From NCBI GenBank assembly GCA_021018995.1, contig CM037587.1:60734104-60798103 (forward strand): DNA of 64,000 nt. Reading direction: 5' to 3'. Positions within the stretch are counted from its first letter, which is position 1, and each line of letters opens with the position of its first letter. Below, one piece after another: positions 12,569 to 60,569 of this stretch. This DNA is from Chloranthus sessilifolius (Eukaryota; Streptophyta; Magnoliopsida; Chloranthales; Chloranthaceae). Under the pieces are notes generated by a model that ran no database searches, was not told the origin of the DNA, and saw only the letters and a list, made by a program, of their open reading frames with translations. The position numbers and the translations under genes are program-made.

Positions 12569-12787
12569 CTGCGCAACTAATAGTTGCGCCAAGCCATTTT
12601 TTCCCAGAATTTGCCTGGCGCAACTAATAGTTGTGTCAGGCCTTTTCTCCCCAGAAATGGCCTGGCGCAACTAATAGTTGCGCCAGGTATAAATGGGTCC
12701 CCTGCTCCCCGCGGGCTTGCAACCTTTAAGAAATCTCGCCCACTGTTTTACTGTATATATGCTTGGCTCAACTAATAGTTGCACCAG
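12569..12787. repeat. E3 U3 palindrome cluster, word CAAC (4 copies)
   Basis: Four copies of a palindrome with arms TGGCGCAACTA and TAGTTGCGCCA around a single A: 12569-12591, 12615-12639, 12661-12687 (perfect, arms of 13) and 12763-12787 (diverged). They are spaced 45-100 bp apart and are embedded in otherwise unrelated sequence. The last copy ends about 280 bp upstream of the TATA box, as in E4 and E7. They could form hairpins in DNA or RNA, or act as protein-binding sites. Confidence 0.9.
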
Positions 12788-13068
12788 GTATATGAACAGT
12801 AACTGTGCTTTATTGCCTCGAATTTCGAAGCTAGGGTTTGACTTGTTGACCACCTCAGTCCTTGGGGTGTGTTTTGATAGCTTTATTATACCCTTTTAAC
12901 ACCTATTTGTAACCCATAAGTGATCTAAACTACTAACCTATCATCCACCATTAAAGCCCATCTTCACACTTCTCTAAACCCTTGAAACCCTAGGAAACCT
13001 TAGATGCTAGATTACCTAATTTCTAACCTTGATTAGCATCTAAGCATCCTTTTAACCCCTCATTTTCC

Positions 13069-13075
13069 TATAAAA
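13069..13075 (+). promoter_or_regulatory. TATA box of the E3 LTR
   Basis: TATAAAA followed by GGAGAGGCACCCC lies 875 bp into the LTR. The E4 and E7 LTRs have TATAAATA followed by GAGAGGC at the matching place, so this is the likely core promoter. Confidence 0.75.
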
Positions 13076-13814
13076 GGAGAGGCACCCCCCCTTAAAGAGG
13101 TTGTAAAAATTAGAGTTGAGAGTTTGCTTAAGAGAGAAAGAGCTTACAGTGAGAAGTTCTTCCTCTCTTTTGTTCCCCCATTTCCACACAAATTTTAGAA
13201 TTTAGGAACCCCCTTCCAAGCCTCATCTTTGATCCAAAAGCCTTAGTTTAGGTGTGTGCTATCCCTTAAACTCCTCTCTCTACCCCTTAGCTAGCAAGCT
13301 TTAGAGGTTAGAACTCCATTGCCTATCATATAAGTCATCAAGAGCTCATCAAAGCAAGCCAACATAAGGCTCCCCTGCGGTGTTACAATGGCCCGAGGGC
13401 TCCAACTCTCTCCTTTCTTCTCCTATCTCTTTTAGTCTTTTTCCATCCTTGTATTTGTGCTGTTATGCCACCGACTTTTCGGTAGGGACAAAGGGGCACA
13501 AATAGGATTTTAAGGCCCTTTGGGCAAGAGGAAGGCTCTTTTATTTCTTTCATGCTATTTGTGTTTCGGCCAAAAGTAGAGACCACATTAAGCGGGTTAA
13601 TTGGATGCCTGATACCTTCTCAATCGATAATCGAAGCCCCTACCAAAGAACCTTTTGTGTGGATCGGATTCAGAGTCATATTTTTAGCACTTCGGGGCTT
13701 ATAAAAATGAACTAGGTTTCCCGGGACACCAAAAGCTCCAGGTGGCGACTCTATATTTTTGTTAGTGAGCGCATCGCCGCAACGGGATCATAAAAAATCT
13801 CACGGTTGAACAAA

Positions 13815-13832
13815 TGGCGACTCTACTGGAGA
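13815..13832 (+). other. E3 primer-binding site
   Basis: TGGCGACTCTACTGGAGA starts two bases after the LTR end. It closely resembles the Tat/Ogre site TGGCGACTCYRCTGGGGA, usually attributed to tRNA-Arg. It fixes the LTR 3' end at 13812. Confidence 0.8.
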
Positions 13833-13939
13833 TAGCTTTTAGAGCTTCTCCTTGAAATTTGGCCATTTCTTTTTATTTTACTACCCATTTTTGCTATTTT
13901 TTTACTATTTTTTTTAATTTTCTCACCCCTACTTTTCCG

Positions 13940-14125
13940 TCATTTACATGCCTTAGCCGATCGGCGGGCTTACTTGTGCATAGTCATTAATTTTCTTTAC
14001 ATTTCCGTCATTTTTTGGTGCCTTAGCCAATATACGGGCTTACTTGTACATTACAATTTAATTTCTTTACGTTTCCGTCATTTAAAGTGCCTTAGCCGAT
14101 TGGTGGGCCTACTTGTGCAAACATA
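13940..14125 (+). repeat. E3 leader tandem repeat (3 units)
   Basis: Three units share CCGTCATT, TGCCTTAGCC, GGCGGGC (or a variant) and TACTTGTGCA, at about 13938-13981, 14006-14051 and 14077-14120. The same three-unit block occurs on the minus strand in the E4 leader (46745-46920), so it predates the split of the two subfamilies. No coding capacity is apparent. Confidence 0.8.
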
Positions 14126-14580: not shown

Positions 14581-14789
14581 CTGCTGTTCTCTGCTGTCAT
14601 AGAATTCAGGAGCTTCATTTTTACCTGGCACAAGTATTAGTTGCATCGGTGTAAAAATCTCAGAATTATAACTGGCGCAACTAATAGTTGTGCCAGCTTT
14701 AAATTTGATAACTTTTACCTTGGCGCAACTAATAGTTGCGCCAGTGTAAAAATGAAGCTCCTGAATTCTATGACAGCAGAGAACAGCAG
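14581..14789. repeat. 44-bp perfect inverted repeat in the E3 leader
   Basis: The arms 14581-14624 and 14746-14789 are exact reverse complements over 44 bases (the left arm starts CTGCTGTTCTCTGCTG). The 121-bp loop contains three of the CAAC palindromes. An RNA from either strand would fold into a long hairpin. Perfect pairing is striking in a decayed element and suggests a recent duplication-inversion, gene conversion or a small foldback insertion. Confidence 0.95.
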
Positions 14790-14838
14790 TGTAAAAAGGA
14801 GGCTTTTCTGACTTGGCGCATGTATTAGTTGCGCTAAG
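14622..14838. repeat. E3 leader palindrome cluster, word CAAC (4 copies)
   Basis: Copies lie at about 14625-14647 (diverged), 14672-14696, 14721-14743 (perfect, arms TGGCGCAACTA and TAGTTGCGCCA around A) and 14813-14837 (diverged). They lie 0.8-1.0 kb past the LTR end, the same offset as the E4 leader cluster. The word equals that of the E3 LTR cluster, not that of E4 or E7. Confidence 0.9.
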
Positions 14839-14839
14839 C

Positions 14840-17927: not shown

Positions 17928-17987
17928 GGAAGGAGGAAAATTTCTGAGCCTCATCCAAGGCACCCATACCCAACCCATTCCCGAAGG

Positions 17988-24560: not shown

Positions 24561-25500
24561 CAATTTAGTCAAGCATGAGTTGCCTCTCTACCCTGATATG
24601 AAGCCGATTAAGCAAAAGCTGCGACGTCTCTGACCCGAGTGGATGTTGAAAGTCAAAGATAAGGTCATCAAGCAGTATGACGTAGGGTTTCTCATGGTAT
24701 CTAAGTACCCGCAGCCAATATCGTGCTTGTGCTGAAGAAGGATGGAAAGGTTTGCATGTGTATTGACTTTCGCAATCTGAACAGGGCGAGCCCGAAGGAT
24801 GATTTCCCATTACCGCACATCGACATCTTGGTCGATAACACTGCTTAGCATAGGATGCTTCCTTTTATGGACGGATTCTCGGGATACAACTAGATAAAGA
24901 TGGCAGAGGCAGATCGAGAGAAGACTACGTTTATCACACCTTGGGGCACCTTTTGCTATCGAGTCATGCCATTTGGGCTGAAGAACGCCGGCGCTACGTA
25001 CCAGAGAGCTATGATCACACTGTTTCACGACATGATGCATCGAGAAATTGAGGTGTATGTCGACGACATGATCACCAAGTCACTGGAGCGAAGCGACCAT
25101 CTGGTAAACCTTCAGAAGCTGTTTGAGAGACTGAGAAAGTACATGTTATGTTCGAATCCACATAAGTGCGCATTTGGCGCCATGTTAGGAAAGCTATTGG
25201 GATTCATCGTCAGCAAGAGAGGGATCGAGGTTGATCCAGTCAAGGTTAAAGCCATCACTGAAATGCCACCACCGTCTACTGAGAAGGAAGTTAGAGGGTT
25301 CTTGGGTAGAATATAATATATGAGTCGATTCATTGCATAGTTAACTCCAATCTCCATGCCGATCTTCAAGCTACTAAGGAAGGACTTGCCCGTTGAATGA
25401 AACGACAATTGCTAGGTAGCATTCGATAAAATCAAAAGCTACCTCCTTAACCCACCTATGTTGGTACCATAAGAGAGCAGGCCATCTACTATCTAAGCAA
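24561..25500 (+). pseudogene. E3 reverse transcriptase fossil
   Basis: Motifs in order: LPHIDILVD, FMDGFSGYNQI, TTFITPWGTFCYRVMPFGLKN and the catalytic box YVDDMI near 25060. These are standard Ty3/Gypsy RT palm and fingers motifs. The enzyme would copy element RNA to DNA in the cytoplasm. The thumb part (LGFIVSKRGIEVDP and KAITEMPPPS) follows. It is broken in several places. Confidence 0.9.
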
Positions 25501-26430
25501 GAAGGTTACTCATTATGAGACACGCTATTCTTATCTAGAGAAAGCATGCCTGGCTCTTGTATGGGCTACTCAGAGGATCCACCAATACTTGCTATCTCAA
25601 GCTATTCTACTTTTGGCCAGAATAGGCCTGTTGAAATACCTGTTCGAGAAACTGGCTCTCATTGGGCGGACTGCACGGTGGCAGCTTTTATTATCTGGGT
25701 TTGACATCACCTACGTCACTCAGAAGTCGATTAAGGGGCAGGCACTCTTCGATCATCTTGCTGACAATCCTTTGTTAGATTATAAACCTTTAAGAACTAA
25801 ATTCCCTGATGTGGACATCCTTTTTATGACGAAAGATGATACTGAAGAAGCAGAGGAATCATGGGTAATACACTTTGACAGGGCAACTAATGCTGAGGGT
25901 CAGGGAGTTGGTGCCATTCTGATTTCGCCGAAAGGATCCCACGTACCCGTCTCTATCAAGCTTAACTTCCTTTGTACTAACATGGCTGAGTACGAAGCGT
26001 GTCGGTGGTCTGCAAGCAGCTCTCGATCTAAATGTAACTCACCTCCAGATGTTTGGTGATTCACAGTTAATCATATGCCAGACAAATGGTGACTGGAAGG
26101 GAAAAGATGAGAAACTGATCCCTTACCATGAGCACCTTGAGGATCTGATAGCTTGCTTCAAAGATGTGACATTCTCATATGTCTCCCGGATAAAGAATTG
26201 CTTCGCCGACACACTAGCGACGCTGACATTAATGATAGAAGTCTCGTATGGTGCTGAGATGAAGCCAATCATGATTGAGCAAAAGAATGAGCCGGCCTTC
26301 TGCCTCCAGATTGAGGAACCTACCAAGCCTGATGATGAGCCACCTTGGTTCTCAGATATCAAAAATTTCCTCGAGACTCCAACTTTCCCTGAGGGTATAT
26401 CCAAGACGAACCGATGAACCATTCAACATC
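25500..26430 (+). pseudogene. E3 RNase H region (RT-linked and second domain)
   Basis: An RT-linked RNase H remnant (YSYLEKACLALVWATQR-like) ends near 25760. A second RNase H with WVIHFDRATNAEGQGVGAIL and FGDSQLIICQTNGDWK covers about 25850-26240. Two RNase H domains, the second of archaeal type, are a known mark of the Tat branch. The role is removal of the RNA strand after copying. It is broken. Confidence 0.8.
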
Positions 26431-27597
26431 TAACGGCAGGCTACGTCATTTGTGCGGAATGCCTTTACAAGCGATCCTATAATAACATCTTACTCAGGTG
26501 ACTTATAGAAAGCGAAACGATCAATATCATGAAGGAGATCCACGAGGGAGTATGCAGAGCCCACGTCAGTGGTCACATGCTTGCTATGAAAATTCTACGG
26601 CAGGGTTACATTTGGACCACTATGGAATCAAATTGCAGCAAATATGTTCAGAAATATTACAAGTGTTAGGAACACTCCAGTTTGATACACGCTCCTGCCA
26701 TCGATCTTCACTGCATGACCACTCCTTGGCCATTTGCTACCTAGGACCTTGACGTTGTCGGAATGATTAATCCAAAAGCATCAAACAGACATTGGTTCAT
26801 CCTCGTCGGCATTGAATACTTCACCAAGTGGGTAGAAGCGGCGTCATATGTCAACATCATGGCCAGTCATGTCGAGAAGTTTCTCAAGAACAATATTGTG
26901 TGCCAATTCGGAGTACCTAAGGATATCATCACAGACAATGGCACAAACTTTGCGAATAAGCGCATCCAAGCCTTCTGCGAGCAATTCAAAATCAAGCACC
27001 ATCACTCATTACCTTATCGGCCTCAAACTAATGGATTCATGGAAGCTGTGAATAGGACGGTCATCTGCATCCTTGAGAAGATGGTCATCACTTACTGAGA
27101 TTGGAGCGAAATGCTGCCGTTTGTTTTGTGGGCCTATAGAACATCAATTCGTACAGCTACAGGGGCAACACTATTCTCCCTTGTGTATGGAACTGAGGCC
27201 ATCTACCGGTTGAAATTGAAGTACCCTCACTCTGAATCCTTATGGAATCAGGCTTATCCGAAGCAGAGAAAGAGAAATCTCGCTTTGACCAATTGAATCT
27301 ACTAGACGAGAAAAGACTCCTAGCCTTGTGTCATACTCAAGTCTACCAGGGGTGAATTGCACGCGCTTACAATAAACATGTCCACGGTCGAGATCTATAG
27401 GTAGGAGACACTGTACTGACGAAGAGCTTCCTATCCCTCCATGCCGACCCGAGAGGGAAGTTCAGGTCGAACTGGGAAGGACCTTATGTCATCCGAGAAG
27501 TGCCTCCAGGATACACCATCCGCCTCTCCACCATGGACGGAGATCATCTTCCTGAGCCCATCAATGTTGGATATGTCCAACGGTTCTACGCTTAGTC
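26430..27597 (+). pseudogene. E3 integrase fossil
   Basis: A zinc-finger-like H2C2 part (CAECLYKRSYNN, EIHEGVC) precedes the catalytic core: WFILVGIEYFTKWVEA, TDNGTNFANK (second Asp) and HHSLPYRPQTNGFMEA (third acidic residue). The C-terminal part ends with YVQRFYA near 27590. Integrase would insert the element DNA. E4 has the same order on the minus strand (37390-38540). It is broken in several places. Confidence 0.87.
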
Positions 27598-30664: not shown

Positions 30665-30700
30665 CTTTGGCATTCGATTATTAGTGATTGGATACCAAAG
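30665..30700 (+). other. 36-nt hairpin at the E3 polypurine tract
   Basis: The arms CTTTGGCATTCGAT and ATTGGATACCAAAG pair with few mismatches around TATTAGTG. The 3' arm overlaps the first bases of the polypurine tract. E7 has the same hairpin (54574-54609, 14 of 16 arm positions paired). Conservation suggests a role in plus-strand priming or in RNA 3' structure. Confidence 0.7.
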
Positions 30701-30709
30701 AGGGGCATC
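30695..30709 (+). other. E3 polypurine tract
   Basis: CCAAAGAGGGGCATC directly precedes TGTAG at 30710. The same tract precedes the E7 LTR (54565-54579, minus strand) and a close relative precedes the E5 LTR (49203-49217). Confidence 0.85.
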
Positions 30710-30766
30710 TGTAGCAATGATTTCTCGCCATTGACACATCTTGGTACTGTTGCTTGTGTTTCTCTC

Positions 30767-33080
30767 AGGATGTTGAGTGAGGAGGAACACGGGCAAGAGG
30801 AGAGGTAAGAGGAAGAGGAGGGACCGAAAGTGGCCTATGGTCCCCGAGGGAGCAATTTTTCATGGTGCAGCGCTCCTCCCGTCCCTGGTATGAAATGTAG
30901 GGTGAGGCAGCCCATACCGATGTCCTTCACCAACAATATGCCCATATTTCAAATTTCGAGATCGCTGACAAGGTACAAAAATACTCTTTGTTGTTGCTCT
31001 TTGCTCAAGCTTGCTATACTTTCCGGACTTGACATCTCTTTATTTTTAATGCAGGACTTGCCCTCGATCATGTTCCGCGGGGGCTAGTTTGACCTCCAGC
31101 GTTTCTACCTCTACCTCCCTCCGGTCATGAAGTTTCTTCTTGCTTAGGCTGATTTCAGGGATTTCATCTCGTGTCCCACCATGAGAGCTGATTCAGCCTA
31201 TCCTAGGGCCTTGATTGAGTGCTTTCGTCCTGAGACCATGCCATTTCACATGGCCATGGCGAAGATGACCCCTTACCCGTCGATTAGTCGATGATTATAG
31301 GGATTTGGATGGGGGGATCCCAGTGACTAATCTTCACGTGCCTGGTCATGGTTTAATTGATCGAGGATTATCCCACCTCCCAAGATATACATGGCTCTGA
31401 GGATTAGTTGTCTTGGCTGACCAATTTGTTTGATGCGAACTAGCTGGTGGATCTAGGACAGTCGGACGCGAATATCTTCATTGAGCTCGAGCATGCCGTG
31501 AGTTTGGCTCGCATCTCACTCCTTTTCCTATTGGGAAAGACCCTCTTCGTAAATGCCAGTGACGGTCGAGTCTCACTGTCCCTGCTTAGTCTTATGGGAA
31601 ACTAGGACAATGTTCATTGATATGACTGGGGCGGGGCTGGATACGCCATGCTGATATCTAGCCTAGCACAAGTCTCAGTTGGGGATTCGAGTTCTGTTTT
31701 GGCTTTTGGCCCGCGATCGAGGTAATCATCTGACTCTCTCTTTTTTCCCTTGGTTCATTGGCCAGCCATTTATCTTATTTCTGACGCATCTTTTATGTAT
31801 ACTGCTCCTTTCAGGATTGGGGATATTTGCACTTCAAGCCTAGCCGCCCCCTTTTTCACTTTGATGCATACGCATACCCGCTTAAGTACAATTAGAACAA
31901 GAACCGCCGCAGGGATGTCAGTATGAATCACCTGGAGATGGGCCTGAGGTCCTAGTTTGACTTGCTGATCCCAGAGCAGGTACGACTATTTCTCTCTCTT
32001 CCTTTTCTGAGTTTCCCCCTTTTGTTATGATATCTATTTGGCTGATTAGATGCTTTTCTGTCTGGGCAGGTCATCTATGACCCTTACATTGGTTCTCCCT
32101 TTTGGGATCGAGCTATTGTGGGTTCATCTCACCTTTTCGTTGATCACTGCATCATTTTCTTTTATGGGGACTGGGCCAGGGCATATTACCTGGGAGAGAG
32201 AGTGGTACATCAGTTTCGAGATCACTTTATTGTGCCGCAGGCTCCTCCCACGACTGTTCTGATACCTGTGGGTACAGTTGAGGAGCTTACTGTCGGATTT
32301 CTCCATCAAGGGGTCCCCATCGATGATCTCCTCATGCCTGGGGGATACCAATTGTGGTATGAGTCCTTACCCTATCGGTCCATCCTTCCCCGTTTCGTAC
32401 CTGACACCAACTTCCTGGCCTTTGGAGATTCACAATATCAGGTAGTTCTCCCTTCTCTTTTAGATCGGTTTCTTATGGTCTTGATTCAATTTTTATCTCT
32501 ACTGACTGAAACTTTACTTCTTTTCTCAGTTCGGCCAAGGAGGCGATTCTGATGACAATGATGGGAGGGCAGTAGGTTCTGCTGAGGCTGCGGGTGCTGG
32601 TCCTTCAGGTCCCTCTGGAACGATAGTTCGACTACTGAGGTTCAGGGGGCCTTCAGATGCCTTGATGATGCCTTTCTCTTGGCAAGTCGGTCCCCCTCCT
32701 GAACTGATTCCTGGGGTAAGTCTTCCTTTTCTGCGTGTTTGCCCCTTTGGTAGAGGCATGCCTGTGTTTACGCCTGTGGCCCCTGTCTAATATCTCTCTT
32801 TTTGTGTGTGGAACTATGAATCGGCTATGAACCAGGCCGAGTACTACAGCAATATTTCTGGTCTGCGAGATGTGAAAGTGGTGAGTATCATGCTGATTGG
32901 TTTCGATCATTGCCTTACTATCTTTATCTTTCGCTCAATCTTGACTGATGACTTTAGGTATGACCTGTAGCATGTTCGTGAAAAGGAATCACGCTCCCTA
33001 CTTAGCCGATTTTCTCAAGCGTGGACCCGAGTGGGAGATGTCCGTACATATCAGAGTTCTTCACACCGGTGTAAGAAGCC
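30767..33080 (+). pseudogene. Plant-mobile-domain (MAIN-like) extra gene in E4, antisense to gag-pol
   Basis: The plus strand aligns with the E7 copy (57643-60046) throughout. Readable pieces include LPSIMFRGG, then RPETMPFHMAMAKM, the plant mobile domain core (usual form RPETHTFHLPxGEMTxTLxDV), and, in a later exon, AYYLGERVVHQF and LLMPGGYQLWYESLPY. Intron-like breaks fall at the same places as in E7: GTACAA near 30973 with a TTTTTAATGCAG acceptor before 31055, CAGGTACGAC near 31980, and a GGGCAG acceptor before 32070. The plant mobile domain is found in MAIN-like nuclear proteins involved in silencing and genome stability, and in several transposon types. It is broken in several places. 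The 5' side is cut at the E3 junction inside a likely 5' UTR intron. Confidence 0.78.
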
Positions 33081-33896
33081 CAAGGGTACTAATAAGGATT
33101 AGGCCATGTTTTTGGATTTTTGAACTTTGAGACGGTTGGGACATATATATATATTTGGATGTTTGGGATTTATGTAAGGGATGATGTGACACTTTATTAT
33201 TTCTTGGATGGTTTTTCAGTGCATATTAGTGCTTTTTTCTTTTGATTGAATGTTCCATCTCCCTTTGGCTTGCCATAGTGAATCGGATTGCTTGCAGGAT
33301 GGGCTTGATTTTTACAGAAAGAATGGCCTTTGGGGACACATACTTTGTTAACACTTGACCGCCATTTTCATGTCTATGCGGGTCTTTCTTGCATAGGGAA
33401 TTGCATGTAAGTTCGATGCAATTAGAAATTTGGATCTCTGTATGTGGTCTAGTATGCTTTTTAAGTAAATGGCAGGAAGTGCAGGCGAGCTGGCTAGGGG
33501 ATCAGCAAAAACAAACTCCCCCTAACCCTCACCTTTTCTTGTGGGGGGGGGGCATAAGTGGTTTGGCGTGTGTATTACACATGCCAGGCAATTCTAGGAA
33601 GAAAAATGGCTTGCGTGTGTGATACACACGCCAGGCATGCCTTGGGATAGAAATGGCTTGGTGTGTGTAATACACACGCTAGGCCAATCCTGGAAAATTT
33701 GTTCTGGCATGTGTATTACACATGCCAAGTGCCTTCTGATGAAAATGGGGTTTTTTAAGCCTGAGAATGCTCTCTTTTCCTTTTCTTTTGATCTAGACTT
33801 GGTGCTTTTTGCTGCCACTTTTCTCCTTGCTTGCCCAAGGGTGGGTCCATCATCCTACATCGAATTTGTATCTTTGGAAAAAATCTTTGTATGACA
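33081..33896. other. Spacer between the two E4 extra genes
   Basis: Non-coding stretch that includes the palindrome cluster (33564-33727). It would hold the 3' end of the plant-mobile-domain gene and the promoter of the DUF7745-like gene. No clear TATA box was found. The E7 spacer (60047-60719) has the same layout. Confidence 0.65.
33564..33727. repeat. E4 inter-gene palindrome cluster, word TGTG (4 copies)
   Basis: Copies at 33564-33586, 33611-33633, 33659-33681 and 33705-33727. The basic arms are TGGCGTGTGTA and TACACACGCCA around one T or A. The last copy has arms TGGCATGTGTA and TACACATGCCA, which pair perfectly: a compensating change in both arms. The last copy ends 170 bp upstream of the DUF7745-like start. 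The word equals that of the E4 LTR and leader clusters. Confidence 0.9.
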
Positions 33897-35376
33897 ATGG
33901 ACCCGCATTTCGACCCCACCTCTCTTGGAGGTTTTGGGACCGTTATACTTCCCTCTTTGGGCCCGGGGCCCAGTTTTTTAATGAAGTGGCTTGAGAGTTT
34001 GAATGAAAGCGAGCTCGTGGATTTGGATTGGCTTGGGTTGACCCCCTCTCATCTTTTCTTGAAGTTCCTCCACTGTGGGACCTTCTTCATGCGGCGACCT
34101 CTTTTTGGGAAGTAAGCACCCCGATTTGGGAATCGTGAGTTGATTCCTATGCTTGAGGAGCTCTCCAACCTATCGAGCTTGAAGCTTCATAGAGGCCTCG
34201 CCAAAGTAGTGCCAAAACTAGGCTATGCTAAAGCCGCCCATGCAAATTTGGGCTTGAAAAAGGTCGATTATGTGAAAAGTCTCATTGGTGGACCCACCAG
34301 GTATTCAGTGAAATTTCGGAGAGAACTTTTTAGCGACGAGAGCTTGCAGAAATTGCTGATTAGAAATATTTATAACGTGAAGGCTTTTGCTCTCTGTCTC
34401 ATCTCTGAGGTTCTTTTCTATACTGGGGGAGAGAGCTTCTCGCTTGTACTCTGATACATCTTGGCAGAATTAGAGGGGGGCTACTCTGTGATGTATCTGA
34501 CCTTGGCGGAGCTTTATCGTTGCCTCAACACCTTTGCCTTGGGCAAAGTGGCATGCCTTAGGGGATGCCCGCTTCTATTTCAGGTTTAGCTAGGGGAGCA
34601 CCTTGCCATTTTGGGGCCTGTGCCTCATTTCTATAAGTCTATGGTGAGGTGACCCGTAGCTTTTTGGGCAGATGCCACATGCTTCCACAAGGAGATGCGC
34701 AGGGGCTGAAGCTTTGGTTGGCTGAGGCTGAGTTGGTGTGGAGGCTTCCCTGGTTAGACCGAACTTTCTCGATGGTCCGCTTTAGAGATCATGAGGGCAT
34801 GACGCTTCTTGGCTTGACCGGCAGCACCTACTATTTCCCATTTCGGGTGCGGCACCAGTTCGATTGCTCTCAGCACGTGCCTTGTGCGGTAAAACCTTCC
34901 CTATGCAACTTGATCTTTTCTTGGGGTGCTCTGGGGACATGGATAGGATAGCTGCTCTCTAGGAGATGCGTCAATCGACGCTCATGTGTGATCTAGAGTA
35001 GGGGAGTTTGGTTTTATCCTCCCCAGAGTATGACGCTTGGCTGCTATCCGAGAAGTCTTCTATTGGTCACTCGAATCAAGCAGAGAGCAGTGATTTAGGG
35101 GGACCTTGGCCGAAGAAGGAGTCGACACTTCGAGCCCACATTGAGCTGCTGACGGATGAGAAGCGAATTCTACAAGAGCATATAGAGAAGCAAAAAATTA
35201 GAGCAGAAGTAGCAGAAGCCAGAGCCGAAATAGCTGAGTGTGAGGTCATTCGTCTGGAAGGAGCCTTGAGTGATGCTCTTGGTGCTACCGATGCTTCCCG
35301 GAAGTGGTATTGGAGTCTCCATGGTCGCTGGATGACTGAGCGGGATGTTTGGAAGGATGATTTACACCTACCCTGA
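33897..35376 (+). pseudogene. DUF7745-like extra gene in E4, antisense to gag-pol
   Basis: The ATG at 33897 corresponds to that at 60720 in E7. Readable blocks: PMLEELSNLSSLKLHRGLAK and KVVPKLGYAKAAHANLGLKK, FRRELFSDESLQKLL with NVKAFALCL, then LWLAEAELVWRLPWLDRTF and GSTYYFPFRVRHQF, and a C-terminal coiled coil (RAHIELLTDEKRILQEHI). The block PTLEExxxLTGL, plus the coiled-coil tail, is typical of DUF7745 proteins common in plant genomes and in Tat extra ORFs; function unknown. The stop is at 35374-35376. It is broken in several places. Confidence 0.65.
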
Positions 35377-37389: not shown

Positions 37390-38540
37390 GAGTAGAACCA
37401 TCGGACGTACCTAGTGTTGATGGGCTCAGGAAAGTGATCTCCGTCCATGGTGGTGAGGTGGATTGCATATATTATGAGCACTTCTCGGATGATGTCTTGA
37501 ATTTCCCTCTTCAATTAGCGTGGAGGGATGGAAAGATCTTCTTGAGTACAGTGTCTCCTACCTTCATATCTCGATCGCGAACACGTTTGCTGTAAGCGCG
37601 TGCGATTCACCCTTGATAAACTTGGGTATGACACAAGGCCCCCAAGGCCAGGAGCCTTTTCTCGTCTAGCAGGTTCAGCTGCTCAAAGCAGTACCTTTCC
37701 CTTTTTGCTTTAGGCAAGCCTGATTCCATGAGTATACAGAGTGAGGATACCTCAACTTCTACTGGAAGAATGACCTCAGTTCCATACACAAGGGAGAATA
37801 GTGTTGCCCCTATAGCGGTACGAATCGATGTCCTGTAGGCCCATAATGCAAACGGCAACATTTGGCTCCAATCTCGATAAGTGATGACCATTTTCTCAAG
37901 GATGCGGATGATTGTTTTGTGAGCAGCTTTCATGGCTCTATTGGTTTGCTGTCGATATGGCGACGAACAATGGTGCTTGATCTTGTATTGCTCGCAGAAG
38001 GCCTTGATGAGCTTGTTCGCGAAGTTGGTGCCATTATCGGTGATGATGTCCTTGGGTACATCGAAGCGACAGACAATATTATTCTTGATGAATTTTTTGA
38101 TATGCTGGGCCGTGATGTTGGCTTAGGATGTTTCCTCTACCCATTTGGTGAAGTATTCGATGGCGACCAGGATGAATTGATGTCTATTGGAAGCCTTTGT
38201 ATTAACCTTCCCGACAACATCGAGGCCCCAGGTGGCAAATGGCCATGGAGTGGTCATGCTGTGTAGGCAGGAGCATGTATCAGACTAGAGTGTTTTTGAC
38301 ATTTGTAGCACTTCCGAATGTGTTTTCAACAATCATATTCCATGGTTGTCCAGAAGTACCCCTGCCGTATAATCTTCTTAGTGAGCACGTGTCCGTTGAT
38401 GTGGGCACCGCATACTCCCTCGTGGATTTGTTTTATGATGTTGGCTGCCTCACTTTCAGTTAAGCATCTGAGCAGGATATTGTTATACGATCGCTTATAG
38501 AGACACTCACTGCAGATGACGTAATTTGCAGCCAAGCGAT
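37390..38540 (-). pseudogene. E4 integrase fossil
   Basis: The minus strand encodes, in order, CSECLYKRSYNNILLRCL (zinc-finger part) with IHEGVCGAHINGHVL, then a degraded catalytic core with the NGTNFAN-like segment, followed by LPFALWAYRTSIRT, a usual Tat segment after the catalytic domain. Function as for E3. It is broken in several places. Confidence 0.85.
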
Positions 38541-38583
38541 GGATGGTTCACCTATCCGTTCTGGATGCATCCTAAGGGAATGT

Positions 38584-39100
38584 TTAAGTCTCGAGGAAGT
38601 TCTTGATGTCTGATAACCATGGCGGCTCATCAATAGGCTTTATGGGTTCCTCAATCTGGAGGCAGAAGGTAGGCTCATTCCTCTGTTCAATCATGATCGG
38701 CTTCATCACAACACCATATGGGATTTCTACCATTGATTCCAAAGTTGCTAATGCATTGGCGAAGCGATTCCTTATTCGCGGGACATATGAGAATGTAACA
38801 TCCTTAAAGCATGCTATCAGATCTTCGAGGTGCTCATGGTAGGGGATTAGCTTCTCGTCCTTCATCTTCCACTCGTCGTTTGTCTGACATATGACCAACT
38901 GAGAGTCGCTAAAAACTCTGAGATGAATTACATTCAGGTCCAATGCCGCTTGTAGGCTAGCTGTGCAGGCTTCGTACTCGGCCATATTGTTGGTGCAGGG
39001 GAAATTGAGTTTGATGGAAACCGATATGTGTGATCATTTTGGCGAGATTAGAATAGCGTCGACTCCCTGACCCTCAGCATTTGCTGCGCCGTCGAAGTGC
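38584..39100 (-). pseudogene. E4 second RNase H fossil
   Basis: The minus strand reads MHFDGAANAEGQGVDAIL near 39034-39100, then MAEYEACTASLQAALDLN and VFSDSQLVICQTNDEWK. The first and third acidic positions of the RNase H fold are visible (FDGAANAEG, FSDSQLV). This is the additional archaeal-type RNase H of the Tat branch. It is broken. Confidence 0.82.
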
Positions 39101-40510
39101 ATCACCCAGGATTCTTTCATCTCTTCGGTATTGTCCTCTGTCATAAATAAGATATCCTCATTTGGGAACTCAGTTCTCAAAGGCTCATAATCAGGTAAGG
39201 GACTGTCGGCAAGATGATCGGCTAGTGCTTGCCCTTTGATTGACTTCTGAGTGACATATGTGATGTCAAATTCGGATAAGAGTTGCCAACATGCAGTCCG
39301 CCCAGTGAGAGCTAGCTTTTCGAACAAGTACTTTAACAGATCCATTCGTGCTAGCAGTAGAACAGCTTGATATAACAAGTAGTGGCGGAGCCTCTGTATA
39401 GCCCATACGAGAGCCAGGCATGCTTTCTCCATATAAGAATAGTGTGTCTCGTAATCAATAAATTTCTTGCTGAGATAGTAGATGGCCTGCACCCTTCTTC
39501 CTGTTTCATCATGCTGCCATAGGACACATCCCATCAAAACTTCCGTTGTGGAGAGATATATTAGGAGTGGTCTCCCTGGCTTGGGCGGTACTAAAACTGG
39601 CAGGTTGAGAAGATATCCCTTGATTTTATCAAATGCCGCCTGACAGTCGTCGTTCCATTCAACGGGTGAATCTTTCCTCAGTAGTTTGAAAATCGACGTA
39701 CAGATAGGAGTGATTTGGGCGATGAACCAGCTGATATACTGTATCCTGCCCAAGAATCCTCTAACCTCTTTCTCGATAGATGGTGGCGGCATTTCTGTGA
39801 TGGCTTTTACTTTGATTGGGTTAACCTCGATACCTCTCCTGCTGACAATGAAGCCTAATAGTTTCCCTAACATGGCACCGAATCTGCATTTATGAGGATT
39901 TAGATGAAGCCTGTATTTTCTCAACCTCTCAAACAGATTTTGGAGGTTTATCAGATGGTCACTTCTCTTTGCTAACTTGGTGATCATGTCGTCGACATAC
40001 ACCTCTATTTCTCGATGCATCATGTCATGGAATAGCACTGTCATTACTCTCTGGTAGGTTGTGCTGGCATTTTTTAATCTGAATGGCATGACTCGGAAGT
40101 TAAAAGTTGTCCAGGGAGTGATGAATGTTGTCTTCTCTTGGTCTGCTTCTACCATCTCGATTTGATTGTACCCGAAAAACCCATCCATAAATGAGAGCAT
40201 CCCGTGCTTAGTAGTGTTATCGACCAAGATGTCGATGTGTGGCAATGGAAAGTCGTCCTTTGGGCTCGCCTTGTTTAAGTTTCAGAAATCAATGCACATG
40301 CAGACCTTTTCATCCTTCTGTGGCACTAGGACGATGTTCGCTAGCCACTGAGGGTACTTGGAAATCATGATAAATCCTGCGTCGTATTGTTTAATGACCT
40401 CGTCCTTTACTTTCAACATCCACTCTGGTCAAAGTCACTCAACTTTTGCTTGACTGGCTTGATATCAGGGTTGAGTGGCAACTCATACTCGACCAAATCA
40501 GTGTCTAAAC
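39100..40510 (-). pseudogene. E4 reverse transcriptase and RT-linked RNase H fossil
   Basis: The minus strand holds MPHIDILVD, SFMDGFFGYNQIEM, TTFITPWTTFNFRVMPFRLK and the catalytic box YVDDMIT near 39990. The thumb has LGFIVSRRGIEVNP and KAITEMPPPS. The RT-linked RNase H contains YETHYSYMEKACLALVWA. The open stretch 39034-40245 is the longest in E4. The N-terminal RT end (PLNPDIKPVKQKL-like) runs on to about 40510. It is broken. Confidence 0.92.
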
Positions 40511-46090: not shown

Positions 46091-46255
46091 TGGCGTGTGT
46101 ATTACACGAGTGAGGCCAAATCTGGTCAAACTAAGCTTGGTGTGTGTATTTCATGCGCCAATGCAAATATGGGGAAATCTAAGCTTGGCATGTGTAATAT
46201 ACACGCCAATGTAAATCTGGGAAAAAGTGGTTTGGCGTGTATTTTACATACGCCA
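46091..46255. repeat. E4 leader palindrome cluster, word TGTG (4 copies)
   Basis: Copies at about 46091-46113, 46138-46160, 46187-46209 and 46233-46255. Arms are variants of TGGCGTGTGTA and TACACACGCCA around one T or A, with one or more mismatches each. The cluster is 0.83-0.99 kb past the LTR end, the same offset as in E3. Confidence 0.85.
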
Positions 46256-47809: not shown

Positions 47810-48090
47810 GGAAAAAGGTAGGTTAGGAGGGTACTTAAGTGCTAATTAGGGTTAGCAATTAGGTAATCTTCTAATCTAAGGTTTCCTAAGATTTTGAGAG
47901 CTTGGAAAAGTGGGCAATGGGCTTCCATGGTAGATGATAGGGTGAGGTCTCAAATGACTAGAGGGTTGCAAATAGGGTAATAGTGGGTGCAACAGTCCTA
48001 ATGAAACCTACCCTAAACATTGAGATGGTCAACAAATCAAACCCCAAAAGTAGAATTCGAGTAAAAACCCACAGTTACTGTAGCTAAGCC

Positions 48091-48189
48091 TGGCGTGTGT
48101 ATTACCCACGCCAAGCATGGCTACAGTATCTGGAAGTCTAGAGCCCGCATGGGGATTAGCCATGCTTGGCGTGTGTAATACACATGCCA
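48091..48189. repeat. E4 U3 palindromes, word TGTG (2 copies)
   Basis: 48091-48113 (one arm mismatch) and 48167-48189 (TGGCGTGTGTA, A, TACACATGCCA). Offset from the LTR start is 400-500 bp, matching E3 and E7. Near 48217-48250 are further words TCTCGCGTGG and CTCGCGAGG. Confidence 0.88.
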
Positions 48190-52538: not shown

Positions 52539-53672
52539 CTATACAATAATTGATAAAAAATTCGGATTGAAGTGTGTTTTACAATCGGTGAAAATACCTC
52601 ATTACAATCAATACATTCCTTTTGTGCATAGCCCTTTGCTACCAATTGTGCCTTGTGCCTTGTATCACTACTTTTCAGAGAACCCTCTTTATTCTTATAA
52701 ACTCACTTGGATCTATTCGCGCTCTTACCCTTAGGTAGCTCTAGCATATGCGATCATATCCTCATAATCACAGTAAATTGGTGCTCTAGCATTCCTTTTT
52801 GGTCTCTCAGGTCTCTCACCTACTAAGGATTGCTCTAGCTCCCCCTCAACTCTTTCTTCACTTAAAATTTCTATACATTTTTCTGATGTAGTACTTGTAG
52901 GAGTTTAACTCCACCTCAAACTGATCTTCTGCTACCTCTCCAATTTTCATGCTATGTTTACTTGATGTTCATTGTGCGACCGTGGATCCTCTCGAACCCG
53001 TCGCGGCGATGCGCTTGCCTAGGATAAAATGTAGAGTTGCCACCCGGAGCTTTTGGTGACCCGGGAAACCTTCAAATCGATATTTTGAGCACCGAAGTGC
53101 TAAATATGACTCTGATTTACCGGTCTTTGCCAAAGGCTCTAGGGTAGGGGCTTCGGTTATCGATCGGGAAGGGTTTAGGCACCCGATCAACCCGCACGTA
53201 GTGGTCTCTATCTATGGCCAAAATGAAAATAAAAAGGGCGGAGTTTCTCCTTGCCCGAAGGCAATACGGTCCTATCAAGCTTTGAGCCAAACCGAAATTT
53301 CGGCGGCGTAACGGCTTGAATCCTTGGACGGAGGAGACACCAAGAAGGTAGAGGAAGAGAGGGGTGAGCCGGAGCTCACAGGCCCTTGTTGCACCGTGAA
53401 AGATCTTCACTTTGGCGTGCTTCCGATGGCTTAAATGGTGTGAAAATGTGTTCTAATGCTAGGATTCAATAAAGTAGGGGTGTAGAGTGAAGCTAGACGC
53501 TAGGCTTTAGCTAAAGGGAGTGATCTAATGGTGGAAATGGATTGGAAAAGATGAACTAAGCTTGCTAGAATTCTGGGAAATGAGTGCACTTTCTCTCACT
53601 AGGGTTCTCTCTTGGGCTCCAAATCTTTAACCTCCAATTTCTTCCAACCCTTAAGGAAGAGGGAGGCCTCTC

Positions 53673-53680
53673 TATTTATA
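53673..53680 (-). promoter_or_regulatory. TATA box of the E7 LTR
   Basis: TATAAATA followed by GAGAGGCC on the minus strand, 280 bp downstream of the nearest palindrome. Confidence 0.75.
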
Positions 53681-53960
53681 GAGAAGGGATGGGTTAGGGG
53701 CTTACTTAAGAGCTAATTGGTTTAGCAATTAGGTAATCCCCCATCTAAGGTTTTTTTGGGTTTTCAAGGTCCTAGGGTTTTGGGAAACTAGTTTCAATGG
53801 CGGATGATGGGGTGAGACCATGGGTGACTTAAGGGTTGCCAATAAGCTCAAAGGGGGTGCAACCAATCTCAAGACACCCACCTCAACCCAGGGGATGGTC
53901 AAAGGGTCAAACTAGATGGAGGAAATTAGAGCTACTGATGACAGTTACTGTAGCTAAGCT

Positions 53961-54178
53961 GGGCGTATATATTATATATGCCCAGTTTAGGAACAGTAAT
54001 TTTCACCAAAATCAGGGGAGTTTTGAGAAGATGAAACCCGTGGTGGGCCCCACCTATACTGGGCATACATATTATATACGCCCGGCCAAATTTTCCCCTA
54101 AAATAGGTAGGCGTATATAATATATACGCCTGAACAATCTGGGGTAAAAATGACTGGGCGTATGTAATATCTACGCCT
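53961..54178. repeat. E7 U3 palindrome cluster, word TATA (4 copies)
   Basis: 53961-53983 (GGGCGTATATA, T, TATATATGCCC), 54061-54083 (GGGCATACATA, T, TATATACGCCC), 54109-54131 (perfect: AGGCGTATATA, A, TATATACGCCT) and 54156-54178 (diverged). Spacing is 25-77 bp between copies. Offset from the LTR start is 386-604 bp, as in E3 (375-593). Confidence 0.9.
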
Positions 54179-54564
54179 GCGCAAAATTCATGATTTTATG
54201 TGAAACTTAAAACGGCCATAACTTTTGAACCGTAGCTCCAAATTGGGTGATCGTTGGCTTGTTGGAAAGCTGGAGAAGCCCTCTTTCTAATGGTATATGG
54301 CTCATCCATGGTACTGGTCTGTGTGAAATTATATAGCTCTCCTCCCTTCAATCGCCAGAGGGGTTTAAGTTAGGTTTGGGAAGGGATTCTAGGGTGTAGG
54401 GGTGACTTCTAAGGATTGGGGGAATGGCTCTAAAGGTCTTAGGGTGATTCCTACTAGTCTAGGTAGGTTCCTAAGGGTTCAGGGGGGTGCCATCGAAAGC
54501 ACATGGGTACATCTCTCCCGAAGTACAAATTGATCGGGCCTTGGGCCGAATTTGGGTGTCTACA

Positions 54565-56500: not shown

Positions 56501-56510
56501 ATTTTTGGTC

Positions 56511-56579
56511 GGGCGTATATAATATATACGCCTGACCAAAATCTGACGAAAAATGGTCGGGCGTATATATTATATCGCT
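56511..56579. repeat. E7 palindromes upstream of the plant-mobile-domain gene, word TATA (2 copies)
   Basis: 56511-56533 (GGGCGTATATA, A, TATATACGCCT) and 56559-56579 (one arm shortened). They lie about 60-200 bp upstream of a likely 5' UTR exon and 1.06 kb upstream of the coding start at 57643. The same word is used in the E7 LTR and inter-gene cluster. Confidence 0.85.
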
Positions 56580-57642
56580 TTCTAAATCTGGCGATTCTGG
56601 CTGCGAGCCCGAGCACAAAAGGGGCCCCCCTTTTCAAATTCTCTCCTCCTCCCTCCTTTCTTCTTGAGTCCAGGACAACCCCCTTATGGTTTTTTTGTTT
56701 TTGATTTGGCTTGAATTCCATTACTGGCGGTCGCGGGTGTGGATCGAAAGGCGCTTACCCTCCGCCGCTCTTCGTTTTTCTCCCCCATTGAAGGTAACCA
56801 TTACCTTCCCTTACTTTCTCTTTGTATTTTGATAACATTATTGTTTTTCTTTTTCTCTCTCTTTTTTTTTTCTTTTATGGTGAAATGCTTTTTCTTTTTT
56901 TCATTTCCATTTAAACATATGTGATGCCTATGTTCCTTTTCTCTCGGTTTTGTTGTTTTTTTTTTTTTTTTTCCTTAGGCCTATTTTTTTTCATCTATTA
57001 TTTATTCATCTCATCCTATTTTCTCTTTCTTTTTTGTTTTCGATGGATTAGCGCATCTTATTTTTTTGGATTAGCACACTCGCACATGGTTTTGTTTGTT
57101 TTTTTTATACACACATCTCTTTTTTGGATTAGTACCCACACACACATGATTTTTTTGTTTTTTTTTCTTTTAGTACACACACACATCTTTTCTTTCGGAT
57201 TAGTATATACACATGAGTTTTTTTTTTGTTTTTTAGTACACACACGTCGTTTTTTTGTTTTGGATTAGTATACATACACACATGTTGTTTTTTTTTTTTT
57301 AGTTTAGTACACACACACACACATCTCTCTTTTTTTTTTTTGGTTTTGGATTAGTATTCATACACACGTCTTTTTTTTTTTTTTAGTTTAGTACACACAC
57401 ACACACACATCTCTCTTTTTTTTGGTTTTGGATTAGTATTCATACACACATGTTTTTTTTTTTTTTTTTTTTTTAGCACACACACACACACATCTCTTTT
57501 TTTGGTTTGGGATTAGTATACATACACACATGGTTGTTTTTTTTTTGTTATTATTCTTTGGATTAGTGCATATACATATTTTTCTCTTTCTTCTTTTTTT
57601 GTTGGCAACCCCTCATATGCCGATGCGTCTCATGTTTTCAGG
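56580..57642 (+). other. Likely 5' UTR exon and T-rich 5' UTR intron of the E7 plant-mobile-domain gene
   Basis: CCCCCATTGAAGGTAACC at about 56780-56795 looks like a donor site (AAG/GTAACC). A very T-rich stretch runs to CATGTTTTCAG/GATG at 57641, a good acceptor two bases before the ATG. The intron would be about 855 bp and contains the GGATTAGTAY minisatellite. In E4 the same acceptor (TTTCTCTCAGGATG) is present near 30765. Confidence 0.55.
56990..57560 (+). repeat. CA- and T-rich minisatellite in the putative intron
   Basis: About ten loose units of 45-65 bp, each made of a T run, TTTGGATTAGTAY or TTTAGTACACAC, then (CA)n and CATCTCT or CATGTT. Open frames in both strands are artefacts. 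It is likely unstable in length. Confidence 0.85.
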
Positions 57643-60046
57643 ATGTCTGCTGACGAGGGACATGATCAGCAAGAAGGGCCGGAAATGGCCTACGGCCCCC
57701 GTGGGGAATAGTTCATTGTGTCTCAGCGCTCCTCCCAGCCTTGGTATGAGATGCAAGCACACCCATATGTCCAACTTCGGGATCATTGGTCAGGTAAACA
57801 GATGGACCCCCTCCTCCTTTCCGCTTTTATTTTCCTTTGATGCCCTCATTATACCTCCCTGCCCCTATCTGATTGATGCCTTTTTCTTGCAGCCCCTGCC
57901 GCACATTATGTTCCGAGGCGGTTGGTTTGACCTCCAACGCCTTGTGCTTTACCTTCCCCCAGTGGTGAAGGACCTACTTACTGCTGCCGGTTTTGGGGAC
58001 TTCATTTCGTGCCCCGCCGTAAGAGCTGATACGGCCTATTTAAAAGTGTTGATAGAGCGTTTTCGCCCCGAGACGATGACATTCCACATGGCCGTGGCAG
58101 AGATGGCCTTCACTCCGGCGGACTGGTCTATGATCATTGGGGTTCGTATCGAAGGTGTGCCCGTGGTAACTACTCGCACACCAGGTAGGGAGGAGGTGAT
58201 TCAGCTGCTAGGGGCCTACCCGTCCTCAAGGAACGTTCGGGGCTCGGAGGTCAAGCTATCTTGGTTGGTTGATCAGTTTGGGCCTAATGAGTTGGTGGAC
58301 CAGGGGCAGCCCGACATGGACATTTACATCAAGCCTGCGCGCGCACTTATACTGGCCCGCATCTCCTTACTGTTCCTCCTGGGCAAGACTCTCCTCTCCA
58401 ACACCAGTGGAGGGCGAGTCTCTTTGTCCCTGCTCAGCTTGATGGTGAACTGGGAGACCGTGCATCGATTCGATTGGGGCGGCGCTGGCTATGCCGTACT
58501 TATGTCCAACCTAAAGCGGGCTGTTCTTGGGGAGTCTAGCTCCATTGTGAATTTCTGGCCTGCCGTCGAGGTATTTTATCTTTTGTTTTTAGTTTACTCA
58601 ATTTTCTTTTATAGCATACCTGTCCTCATCTGGATGCTTTCTCAGGTCTGGGGGTACCTTCACTTTCAGCCGGGTCGCCCTCTGCTTCAGTCTGACATTG
58701 CTACGTTCCCCCTTATGAGTAACTGGCATGTGGGTCACCGTCGGGACGTAGGTATGAAGCATTTAGAGTTAGGACTGTGCTCTCAGTTTGACCTGTTGAT
58801 CCCAGAGCAGGTAAAACAATTCCTTTTTTATAAATTTGGTAGCTCAGCTTCTGTGTGCTAGGGGTTCTGATCAAATGTGCACCTCCCCTTCCGATTTTTT
58901 CTTCTTTTACAGGTCATCCTCGACCCTTACATAGGATCCCCCTTCTAGAATTTGGCATCAATGGGCCCTTCTCGTCTTTTGCTGGACCGTCGTATCATCT
59001 TTCTCTACGGGTCCTGGACTAGGGCCTACTATTTAGGGGAGAGAGCGGTTCATCAGTATCGCCCTCTCTTTGTCGTGCCCCAAGCTCCTCCCGCCGATGT
59101 GTTGGCCCCAGAGGGCTCCATTGATGAGCTCACTGCTCACTTTCTTCATCATGGGGTTCCTATCGATGACCTTCTCCTGCTTGGGGGGTATCAGTCTTGG
59201 TACGACTCCCTGCCCTATCATTTCTTGCTGCCTCGCTTCGTGCCTGGTGCTAACTTTTTAGCTTTTGGCGGGCCGTGATCTCAGGTAATGCCCCTTTTCT
59301 TCTTTCATTCAGCAGCTTTCATGTGGTTACTTTGATTGACCTGTCACCCTTAATGATAAAACATTTCTCTCTACAGTTTGAGCAGGGCGGTGACTCAGAT
59401 GAGGGGGAATAGGAGGCCGTTCCCTATGATGCAACAGGTGTTGGACCTTCCGATCCTTCCGGGGCTGGTGCCTCTGGCATGGCTTCAAGTGCTGGACCCT
59501 TTGACCCTTCTGGTGCCGGTGCTTCTGGTAGCTCGCCCGTCGAGGTCCAGGGGACCTTCAAGCGCCTGGATGATGCCTTTTTGTCACGCGTGTGTGCCGA
59601 CGTGGCTGAAAAGGCATGGATTTCTGCTGAAGCTATCCAGGTCCCACCTCCCGAGCTGATTCCTGGGGTAATCTCTATCATGTTGCTCTGTTCTTTTTAC
59701 CCTTTGAATTATGCTGATGGCTTGTGTGACTAACACCTCCTTTTTCTTACTGGCCAGGATTATGAGTCGGCAGTGAGTCAGGCCGAGTACTACCGTAACC
59801 TCATTGGGCTTAGGGAGACCGAAGTGGTGAGTGAATGCTGGCCTAACCTAGTCATTTTCCTAGTTTACTTTCCGCCTGTTTCTCTATCTGATGGCTTTTG
59901 GTGTGCCTCTGCAGCGTGCTCGTGAAAAGGAGTCGCGCTCCTTGCTTAGCCGTATCTCTCAGGCATAGACTCGGGTGGGGGAGACCCGTACCTTTCAAAG
60001 TGCGAGCCGGCGCCAGAAGAAGTCGAAGGGGGCTGCCCAGGACTAG
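57643..60046 (+). pseudogene. Plant-mobile-domain (MAIN-like) extra gene in E7, antisense to gag-pol
   Basis: The ATG at 57643 begins MSADEGHDQQEGPEMAYGPR. Six GT-AG introns can be proposed at about 57794-57892, 58571-58645, 58811-58912, 59285-59376, 59668-59757 and 59827-59914; the stop is at 60044-60046. The largest exon (57893-58570) has FRGGWFDLQRLVLYLPPVV and RPETMTFHMAVAEM, the plant mobile domain, with IIGVRIEGVPV next to it. The exon after 58913 has YYLGERAVHQYR and LLLLGGYQSWYDSLPYH, and the end is Lys/Arg-rich. The domain occurs in MAIN-like nuclear proteins and in transposons. Introns are kept because the gene lies antisense to the element transcript. A few interruptions are present. 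The E4 copy shares exon borders. Confidence 0.82.
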
Positions 60047-60439
60047 TTTATTTCCTACAAATTTGACATAATAAAACAGCTTAGACTTGGCTTTATTTGG
60101 GGATATGTAATAACAAAAAAAAAATTTTGTTTGGATGGTTTATAATTTTCATGGTTTATGTGAATGTTTTATTTGGGTATTCCTTTTCTTCGGTGGTTTC
60201 CTTCCCCTTTTCCTTGCTTGGGATGAACTGGCACCTCTCCAATGATGAGGTTGATCATGCAGGTGACCCTTCGTATGTGACCTACGGGCGGCGCGCCACC
60301 CGGGTGTTTCTCACGGGTGTGGCATGGCCGCCCATGTGCGCTCTTGCGACGAAAAGGTGGTCAACATAATTACGTCCCTCCTTGGGAAAAGAAATAGACC
60401 AGTGAAGGGGGGGGGGCCTTACCAGCCTCGGCTTAAATC

Positions 60440-60569
60440 AGGCGTATATATTATATACGCCAGGCCAACATTCAACAATCAATAGCCAGGCGTATATATT
60501 ATATACGCCTGACCAATCCCCAGCAAAATTTGTTCAAAATTTGCCTTGGCGTATATAATATATACGCTT
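60440..60569. repeat. E7 inter-gene palindrome cluster, word TATA (3 copies)
   Basis: 60440-60462 (AGGCGTATATA, T, TATATACGCCA), 60488-60510 (perfect: AGGCGTATATA, T, TATATACGCCT) and 60547-60569 (TGGCGTATATA, A, TATATACGCTT). They end 150 bp upstream of the DUF7745-like start. E4 has TGTG-word copies at the matching place. Confidence 0.9.

Follow-up and report, generated by a model that had tools for sequence, protein, structure and literature searches.

A 64,000-nucleotide (nt) stretch of the Chloranthus sessilifolius genome (NCBI GenBank assembly GCA_021018995.1, contig CM037587.1, positions 60,734,104 to 60,798,103; in the following, the window) contains three Tat-type retroelements, E3, E4 and E7 (names taken over from a first-pass annotation), which all have broken reading frames and carry clusters of a 23-nt palindrome with a constant frame and an inner 4-nt word that is specific to the element. 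On balance, these palindromes are probably operators of a dimeric, sequence-specific regulator, most likely the element's own plant mobile domain (PMD) protein, the specificity of which would have changed together with its sites. What was observed directly in the window is the pattern itself with its statistics and positions, the presence of the PMD genes, and the independence of the intervening spacers from the word.

The window was scanned for the frame GGCG-N4-TA-W-TA-N4-CGCC, either in a loose form (at least 9 of the 12 frame positions and at least two of the four word pairs complementary) or in a strict form (at least 10 of the 12 frame positions and at least three of the four word pairs). 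The loose scan of the 64 kb revealed 28 sites, comprising 26 in eight clusters and two strays (4195 and 55268). The 26 clustered sites and a half copy at 56564 gave 27 palindromes in E3, E4 and E7, matching the number in the first-pass annotation. Dinucleotide shuffles contained one to four loose sites in 21 of 25 cases and none in the other four. The strict class comprised 20 sites in the window versus none in each of the 25 shuffles, and a chance origin of the palindromes was rejected on this ground. In a frame-free scan for perfect 9-bp arms separated by a 3–6 nt loop, eight distinct places were found in the 64 kb, of which seven were these palindromes and the eighth was an A/T-rich repeat at 62527. 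The frame scan of IMG/VR viral contigs returned 85 stretches with one site each, and these were taken as chance occurrences because all four word pairs were complementary in only two of the 85; the E7 palindrome pattern had no match in the viral contigs.

The consensus sequences of the palindromes were TGGCGCAACTAATAGTTGCGCCA for E3, TGGCGTGTGTAWTACACACGCCA for E4 and RGGCGTATATAWTATATACGCCY for E7 (W, R or Y where copies split). The outermost base varied, as described in the first-pass annotation: the outer bases were T and A in all 10 copies of E4 and, each, in 7 of the 8 copies of E3, and A/G and C/T in E7 (gag sense, 7 of 8 copies each), where their pairing was not constant. The centre TAWTA is symmetric in itself, its middle base being A in 16 of the 26 copies and T in the other 10. 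Symmetry was retained as the word changed, with 241 of 286 arm pairs being of the Watson–Crick type. Start-to-start steps inside the clusters amounted to 46–48 nt in 13 of 18 cases, a distance of about 4.5 turns of DNA. The observed/expected CpG ratio was 0.40–0.85 for six of the clusters, the remaining two having values of 1.23 and 2.04.

The words were CAAC in E3 (8 copies), TGTG in E4 (10 copies) and TATA in E7 (8 copies), with the half copy at 56564 excluded from word and frame counts. The element's own word occupied both arms in 17 of the 26 copies, one arm in seven and neither arm in two; it was present in at least one arm of 24 copies, and the word of a foreign element was found in none of the 52 arms, in agreement with the earlier assignment. 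At the eight word positions, copies from the same cluster had an identity of 0.89 and those from separate clusters of an element, also when kilobases apart, one of 0.87, versus 0.28 and 0.29 between elements (325 pairs overall), whereas the twelve frame positions gave values of 0.81–0.85 in every comparison class. When one word was assigned per cluster, the eight clusters were sorted perfectly by element, an outcome obtained in 2 of 560 arrangements. Simple decay as the origin of the word was rejected: although only transitions separate the word of E4 from that of E7, TATA stands in both arms in six of the eight E7 copies, and the E3 word differs by transversions too.

The spacers between neighbouring palindromes 44–60 nt apart served as a control (15 spacers, 105 pairs, one spacer involving the half copy). 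Their identity was 0.63 within a cluster (10 pairs), 0.55 between clusters of one element (21 pairs), and 0.55 and 0.56 between elements (74 pairs), with a value of 0.48 for shuffled spacers. A weak skeleton common to the units, in gag sense roughly AGCCATTTTTCCCAGATTTGGCC, was read by eye. Since spacers from different clusters are equally unlike within and between elements, recent copying of arrays fails to explain the common word.

The sequence scan placed the clusters at recurrent positions. Cluster A lies in the long terminal repeat (LTR) of all three elements, roughly 370–600 nt in, and comprises four palindromes in E3 (12569..12786, plus strand), two in E4 (48091..48189, minus strand) and four in E7 (53961..54178, minus strand). 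Cluster B, in the 5' leader, has four palindromes each in E3 (14626..14836, plus strand) and E4 (46091..46255, minus strand); the leader of E7 is located beyond the window. Cluster C (no strand assigned) sits between two antisense genes, upstream of the antisense gene PMD2, with four palindromes in E4 (33564..33727) and three in E7 (60440..60569), and the E4 copies at 33.6 kb belong to the region behind pol that is colinear with E7. Cluster D of E7 (56511..56586, no strand assigned) consists of one full and one half palindrome approximately 1 kb upstream of the antisense gene PMD1; E4 lacks the corresponding part. Each cluster holds the word of its element. A palindromic motif is present in the LTR (clusters A) and upstream of an extra gene (cluster C for PMD2, cluster D for PMD1), and that some clusters flank antisense PMD genes is new relative to the first-pass annotation. 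Clusters A (three elements), B (E3 and E4) and C (E4 and E7) occupy homologous places, the flanks of which align between the elements; therefore, identical ancestral places now hold different words.

A TATAAAT sequence in E3 (12688..12694, plus strand) begins two bases past the third palindrome of cluster A, the fourth palindrome being downstream of the box. TATAAAG in E7 (60574..60580, plus strand) is found four bases past the last palindrome of cluster C and approximately 140 nt before the first in-frame ATG of PMD2 (60720). Up to 40 nt from the clusters A of E4 and E7, no TATA box was present apart from the palindromes, which in E7 include TATA as part of their own sequence. Another, odd palindrome, ACAGTWACTGT, has exactly three copies in the window (12796-12806, 48071-48081 and 53941-53951), one per element and always just past its cluster A, and is perhaps a further control site.

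The antisense gene PMD1 of E7 (57437..59278, plus strand) is composed of an open reading frame (ORF, 57437-58861) matching the plant mobile domain PF10536 (E 6.6e-24) and a later conserved piece (58949-59278), which has no Pfam match of its own and a counterpart in E4. The corresponding E4 remnant (30818..32459, plus strand) is broken by stops and frame shifts. A GT-AG interval in the E7 gene (58571..58645, plus strand) has flanks conserved in E4 and a body that is not, and an interval at the equal position was found in E4 (31722..31814, plus strand); the contents of the two are poorly alignable, and the E4 interval contains stop codons. The interval is presumably a spliceosomal intron; a retroelement would be spared its loss if the gene is transcribed antisense to the genomic RNA. 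PMD2 of E7 (60672..61778, plus strand) was recognized from weak PMD matches of two ORF pieces (60672-61280 and 61353-61778), and its broken E4 remnant (33858..34988, plus strand) from sequence comparison. Identities between E4 and E7 were 43–52% in three PMD1 blocks and 51–61% in three PMD2 blocks. A T-rich and ACACAC-rich array with units of about 65–82 nt (57109-57546), perhaps inside a leader intron, is located between cluster D and PMD1 of E7.

The ratio of nonsynonymous to synonymous substitutions (dN/dS) was 0.20 on the coding strand versus 0.33 on the opposite strand for PMD2; the stretch that lies behind the PMD1 ORF gave 0.15 and 0.29, respectively. PMD1 was saturated at synonymous sites (pS 0.75, pN 0.22 for the proportions of synonymous and nonsynonymous differences) and gave no coding-strand ratio, the opposite strand giving 0.33. 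The noncoding LTR treated by the same procedure yielded 0.47 and 0.44. These estimates exclude codons with stops and come from tblastx, which favours well-scoring frames; this bias in frame choice notwithstanding, the order of the values is the one that formerly selected genes should show. PMD1 had no relative in the viral contigs, and a search of PDB sequences gave no match. The plant mobile domain was reported from 57% of Ogre elements (PMC6317226). PF10536 in PMD1 of E7 represents this trait, which is not exclusive to the Ogre clade.

A dimeric DNA-binding factor is suggested because the palindromes have a dyad about a single base pair, a W centre in both orientations, near-regular spacing and one word per element. 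The first-pass annotation had proposed either a dimeric factor or a hairpin with shifted specificity; the former fits because the words are common to an element's clusters and the spacers are not, whereas the latter found no support in the mismatches on the gag-sense strand (see below). The constant outer frame and the TAWTA centre would provide shared contacts and the 4-nt word the specificity contact, and the regulator would act on promoters of its own element, located in the LTR, in the 5' leader and ahead of the two antisense genes behind pol. One word at all observed clusters of a lineage is what a trans-acting reader co-evolving with its sites would be expected to produce. The factor is most likely encoded by the element because all clusters seen in an element have the same word, and PMD1 or PMD2 would be the best candidate because they are the only non-pol genes recognized by Pfam above or near threshold and sites lie upstream of both. 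As the reader, either protein would regulate its own gene and the LTR, and its effect might be activation or anti-silencing, confined to its own family. From this pattern we infer protein binding, dimerization, PMD as the reader and a transcriptional effect, the binding of PMD proteins to the palindromes being putative. The PMD proteins of Arabidopsis have an effect on genes with a common promoter motif (PMC7156037; PMC9899485), and it was suggested that transposable elements make PMD proteins against silencing (PMC8616336). More tentatively, and with some doubt, the observations may reflect a complete self-recognition circuit, in which the antisense PMD protein would be a dimeric, element-specific reader with operators before its own promoters, reader and word would change together, and each lineage would control itself alone.

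Several points weigh against a PMD-operator relationship. The basis is three elements with broken frames in one window, two of which bear PMD genes (E4 and E7); none was found in E3 within the window, leaving the reader of E3 unseen. Both PMD2 pieces of E7 are below the Pfam cut-off (E 0.0052 and 3.7e-5), matching successive parts of the profile. The Pfam scan covered 28 distinct ORF pieces (one being part of another) from 57 stop-to-stop ORFs of at least 110 amino acids plus some shorter ones; among the scanned pieces of E3, E4 and E7, the gag-side ORFs had no Pfam match, and another element protein could be the reader. The AlphaFold2 model of the PMD1 ORF piece alone (mean pLDDT 38.7, pTM 0.24) provided no fold that backs DNA binding. 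A contact of the Arabidopsis PMD proteins MAIN and MAIL1 with chromatin was stated to be not known (PMC9899485), and the DOWN motif CATGCAGTTT linked to them is no palindrome of the present kind. Finally, a TATAWA box outside the palindromes within at most 40 nt was found at two of the eight clusters only (E3 cluster A and E7 cluster C).

The palindromes could alternatively be operators read by host transcription factors, e.g. by a dimeric family with a common half-site, each lineage having adapted to a different host paralogue. The dyad and the positions would then be the same, TATA boxes do accompany two of the eight clusters, and the present copy of E3 retains its sites although it has no PMD gene. 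We nevertheless regard this explanation as rather unlikely, since the appearance of a new word at every cluster with the frame kept is easier if reader and sites share one element, and since the sites flank antisense genes besides the LTR. Neutral homogenization, by which the 47-nt unit or the palindrome would have been copied between clusters by slippage, recombination or gene conversion and would have no function, has some observations in its favour: the common spacer skeleton and the steps of 46–48 nt in 13 of 18 cases indicate that the units arose by duplication, spacers from a single cluster resemble each other slightly more (0.63, 10 pairs) than the rest do, and the target motifs of VANC proteins of VANDAL transposons are likewise found in tandem repeats. 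However, copying would have carried the spacers too, unless the tracts were shorter than about 25 nt or the copying is old, and between clusters of one element and those of different elements spacer identity stays at 0.55 versus 0.55/0.56 while that of the words drops from 0.87 to 0.28, with the frame at 0.84–0.85. The spacers are near the shuffled level (0.48) and would thus be compatible with old copying followed by spacer decay, during which the words would still have been held alike by selection. We regard homogenization without function as improbable.

Lower still is the probability that we assign to a nucleic-acid hairpin (9-bp stem, 5-nt loop) as the functional form, be it in RNA or in single-stranded cDNA. 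The palindrome can fold, and the pairing of its arms survives the change of the word, but the loop TAWTA is symmetric, which a hairpin does not need. A hairpin in the sense RNA is disfavoured because the imperfect pairs on the gag-sense strand comprised 21 A-C, 10 G-U and 14 others among the 286 pairs, i.e. G-U was not favoured. An antisense-RNA hairpin is less opposed by these data, as the same mismatch count would favour G-U there. No Rfam family reached its gathering score in the window.

E3 is oriented on the plus strand, and E4 and E7 are on the minus strand, the latter running out of the window at 64000. Their LTRs of about 1.5–1.6 kb start with TGTAGAC at 12194 (E3), 48588 (E4) and 54564 (E7). 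The 5' LTR of E3 (12194..13812, plus strand) has the termini TGTAGACACCC...CA and is directly followed by a sequence resembling a primer binding site (13815..13832, plus strand), which is a candidate tRNA-Arg primer site; a primer binding site antisense to tRNA-Arg is a criterion of the Ogre clade. A decayed sequence of this type is also present behind the 5' LTR of E4 (minus strand, start 48588, end 47082). The 3' LTR of E7 (52973..54564, minus strand) is preceded by the polypurine tract AAAGAGGGGC at 54577-54568. In E3, the 3' polypurine tract is followed by the first five LTR bases (30697..30714, plus strand), beyond which no 3' LTR was found. At the junction 30697-30820, E3 stops after these five bases and abuts the 3' region of E4 in a tail-to-tail arrangement, so that neither element has its 3' LTR there.

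The pol region of E4 (37610..40281, minus strand) has the order reverse transcriptase (RT) with RNase H, second RNase H and integrase, represented by the Pfam domains RT with RT_RNaseH (39037-40281), RVT_3 (38587-39033) and rve (37610-38122). Two RNase H domains are a criterion for Tat elements (PMC9289625), and E4 has both, together with RT and integrase. This pol is of the Ty3/gypsy type and thus not that of Sirevirus hosts, which are Ty1/copia elements. The pol remnants of E3 (24714..27202, plus strand) comprise RNase H and integrase identified by Pfam and RT identified by similarity to E4; the pol of E7 lies beyond the window, and this element was assigned via its LTR and 3' region. An extra antisense ORF behind pol, a frequent though not universal trait of Tat elements, was found in E4 and E7 and is absent from E3, where most of the sequence behind pol is missing together with the PMD genes. 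Neither viral contigs nor phage records contained a relative of the E4 RT piece, for which a bacterial genome gave one short match of 31% identity. For pol of E3 and E4, dN/dS was 0.05 on the coding strand versus 0.15 on the opposite strand, with synonymous sites near saturation. An ancient inverted duplication giving rise to E3 and E4, followed by decay in place, was rejected, as the pol dN/dS of about 0.05 points to divergence while the elements were active.

Further repeats were found around the three elements. A 0.9-kb segment occurs twice (11262-12192 and 50613-49708, 76% identical, in equal relative orientation), directly upstream of the 5' LTR of E3 and approximately 1.1 kb upstream of that of E4. 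Tandem arrays with a common core of about 26 nt are located behind pol in E4 (35697-36210, 78-nt units) and E7 (62486-63381, 61-nt units). Direct repeats at 1980-3365 and 8163-9537 (87% identical, about 4.8 kb apart) are probably the LTRs of another element, and no strict palindrome of the frame was present in or between them. A Ty1/copia-type RT fragment (51654-52538, minus strand; RVT_2, E 3.2e-34) lies between the 5' end of E4 and the 3' LTR of E7.

The first-pass annotation knew of no description of such palindromes for Tat elements, and the literature searches agree: judged by titles and the openings of abstracts in the open literature, with most subscription papers outside this set, no palindromic boxes were found for Tat or Ogre elements. 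In the available parts of PMC11963269 and PMC7264820 no palindromic promoter boxes are described; the term palindrome appears only in a cited title in those of PMC11963269, and is absent from those of PMC7264820 and PMC9289625. Palindromes in the available text of PMC3212565 concern satellites, and those in PMC6911290 insertion targets. The kind of arrangement itself is known, though, from Sireviruses (Ty1/copia), the RM boxes of which are palindromic, element-specific, located in the LTR before the TATA box, and found again upstream of ENV (PMC2829016). As in the present case, RM boxes are present in several to many copies, have an element-specific sequence built on a conserved core, and occupy the upper half of the LTR and the region upstream of an extra gene (PMC2829016). 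They differ in the host superfamily (Ty1/copia versus Ty3/gypsy here), in the extra gene (ENV versus antisense PMD) and in the core, which is CGG-CCG in 12 of 13 elements, whereas the consensus sequences here have GGCG and CGCC and no CGG-CCG. RM boxes are further said to form CpG islands and to precede a TATA box; of the present eight clusters, six have CpG ratios of 0.40–0.85 and two of 1.23 and 2.04, and a separate TATA box was found at two. The available part of PMC2829016 contains no account, for Sireviruses, of a constant 23-nt frame in which a 4-nt word is exchanged. The palindromes thus have the kind of architecture seen in Sireviruses, the closest published one, with another core and in another superfamily.

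VANDAL transposons and their VANC proteins share with the present elements the short, element-specific motifs in noncoding tandem repeats that diverge between relatives (PMC5735166; PMC10398659). VANC is an element-encoded reader that evolves jointly with such motifs, and its binding was demonstrated by chromatin immunoprecipitation sequencing (ChIP-seq) and electrophoretic mobility shift assays (EMSA) (PMC5735166), whereas binding in the present case is putative. VANDALs are class II DNA transposons with another protein (PMC8616336); the term palindrome is absent from the available part of PMC5735166. VANC had no match among the 28 ORF pieces scanned with Pfam, the presence of a VANC model in Pfam not having been checked. 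MAIN and MAIL1 of Arabidopsis contain the same protein domain as PMD1 and are tied to a promoter motif and to transposable-element control; they are host genes, however, the DOWN motif is located in the MORC1 promoter, and direct binding was not established there (PMC7156037; PMC9899485). Retand and other Tat elements have antisense ORFs behind pol with a suggested regulatory role, and tandem repeats in the same region, but these ORFs mainly encode the TRP28 domain (PF04195) rather than PMD (PMC11963269; PMC7264820).

The role of the antisense extra genes of Tat elements and the mode of action of PMD proteins are both stated to be open (PMC7264820; PMC11963269; PMC8616336). The palindromes described here offer concrete candidate target sites, and the variable word allows a sharp test of a PMD protein with its own versus another element's word. 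If a PMD protein proves to bind the word of its own family and not the other two, these elements would join VANC as another instance of private DNA codes evolving in plant transposons, which would hint at how elements of this type can live side by side in a genome while being controlled separately. If the self-recognition circuit holds as well, it would assign a DNA-binding function to the PMD family, the host proteins MAIN and MAIL1 included.

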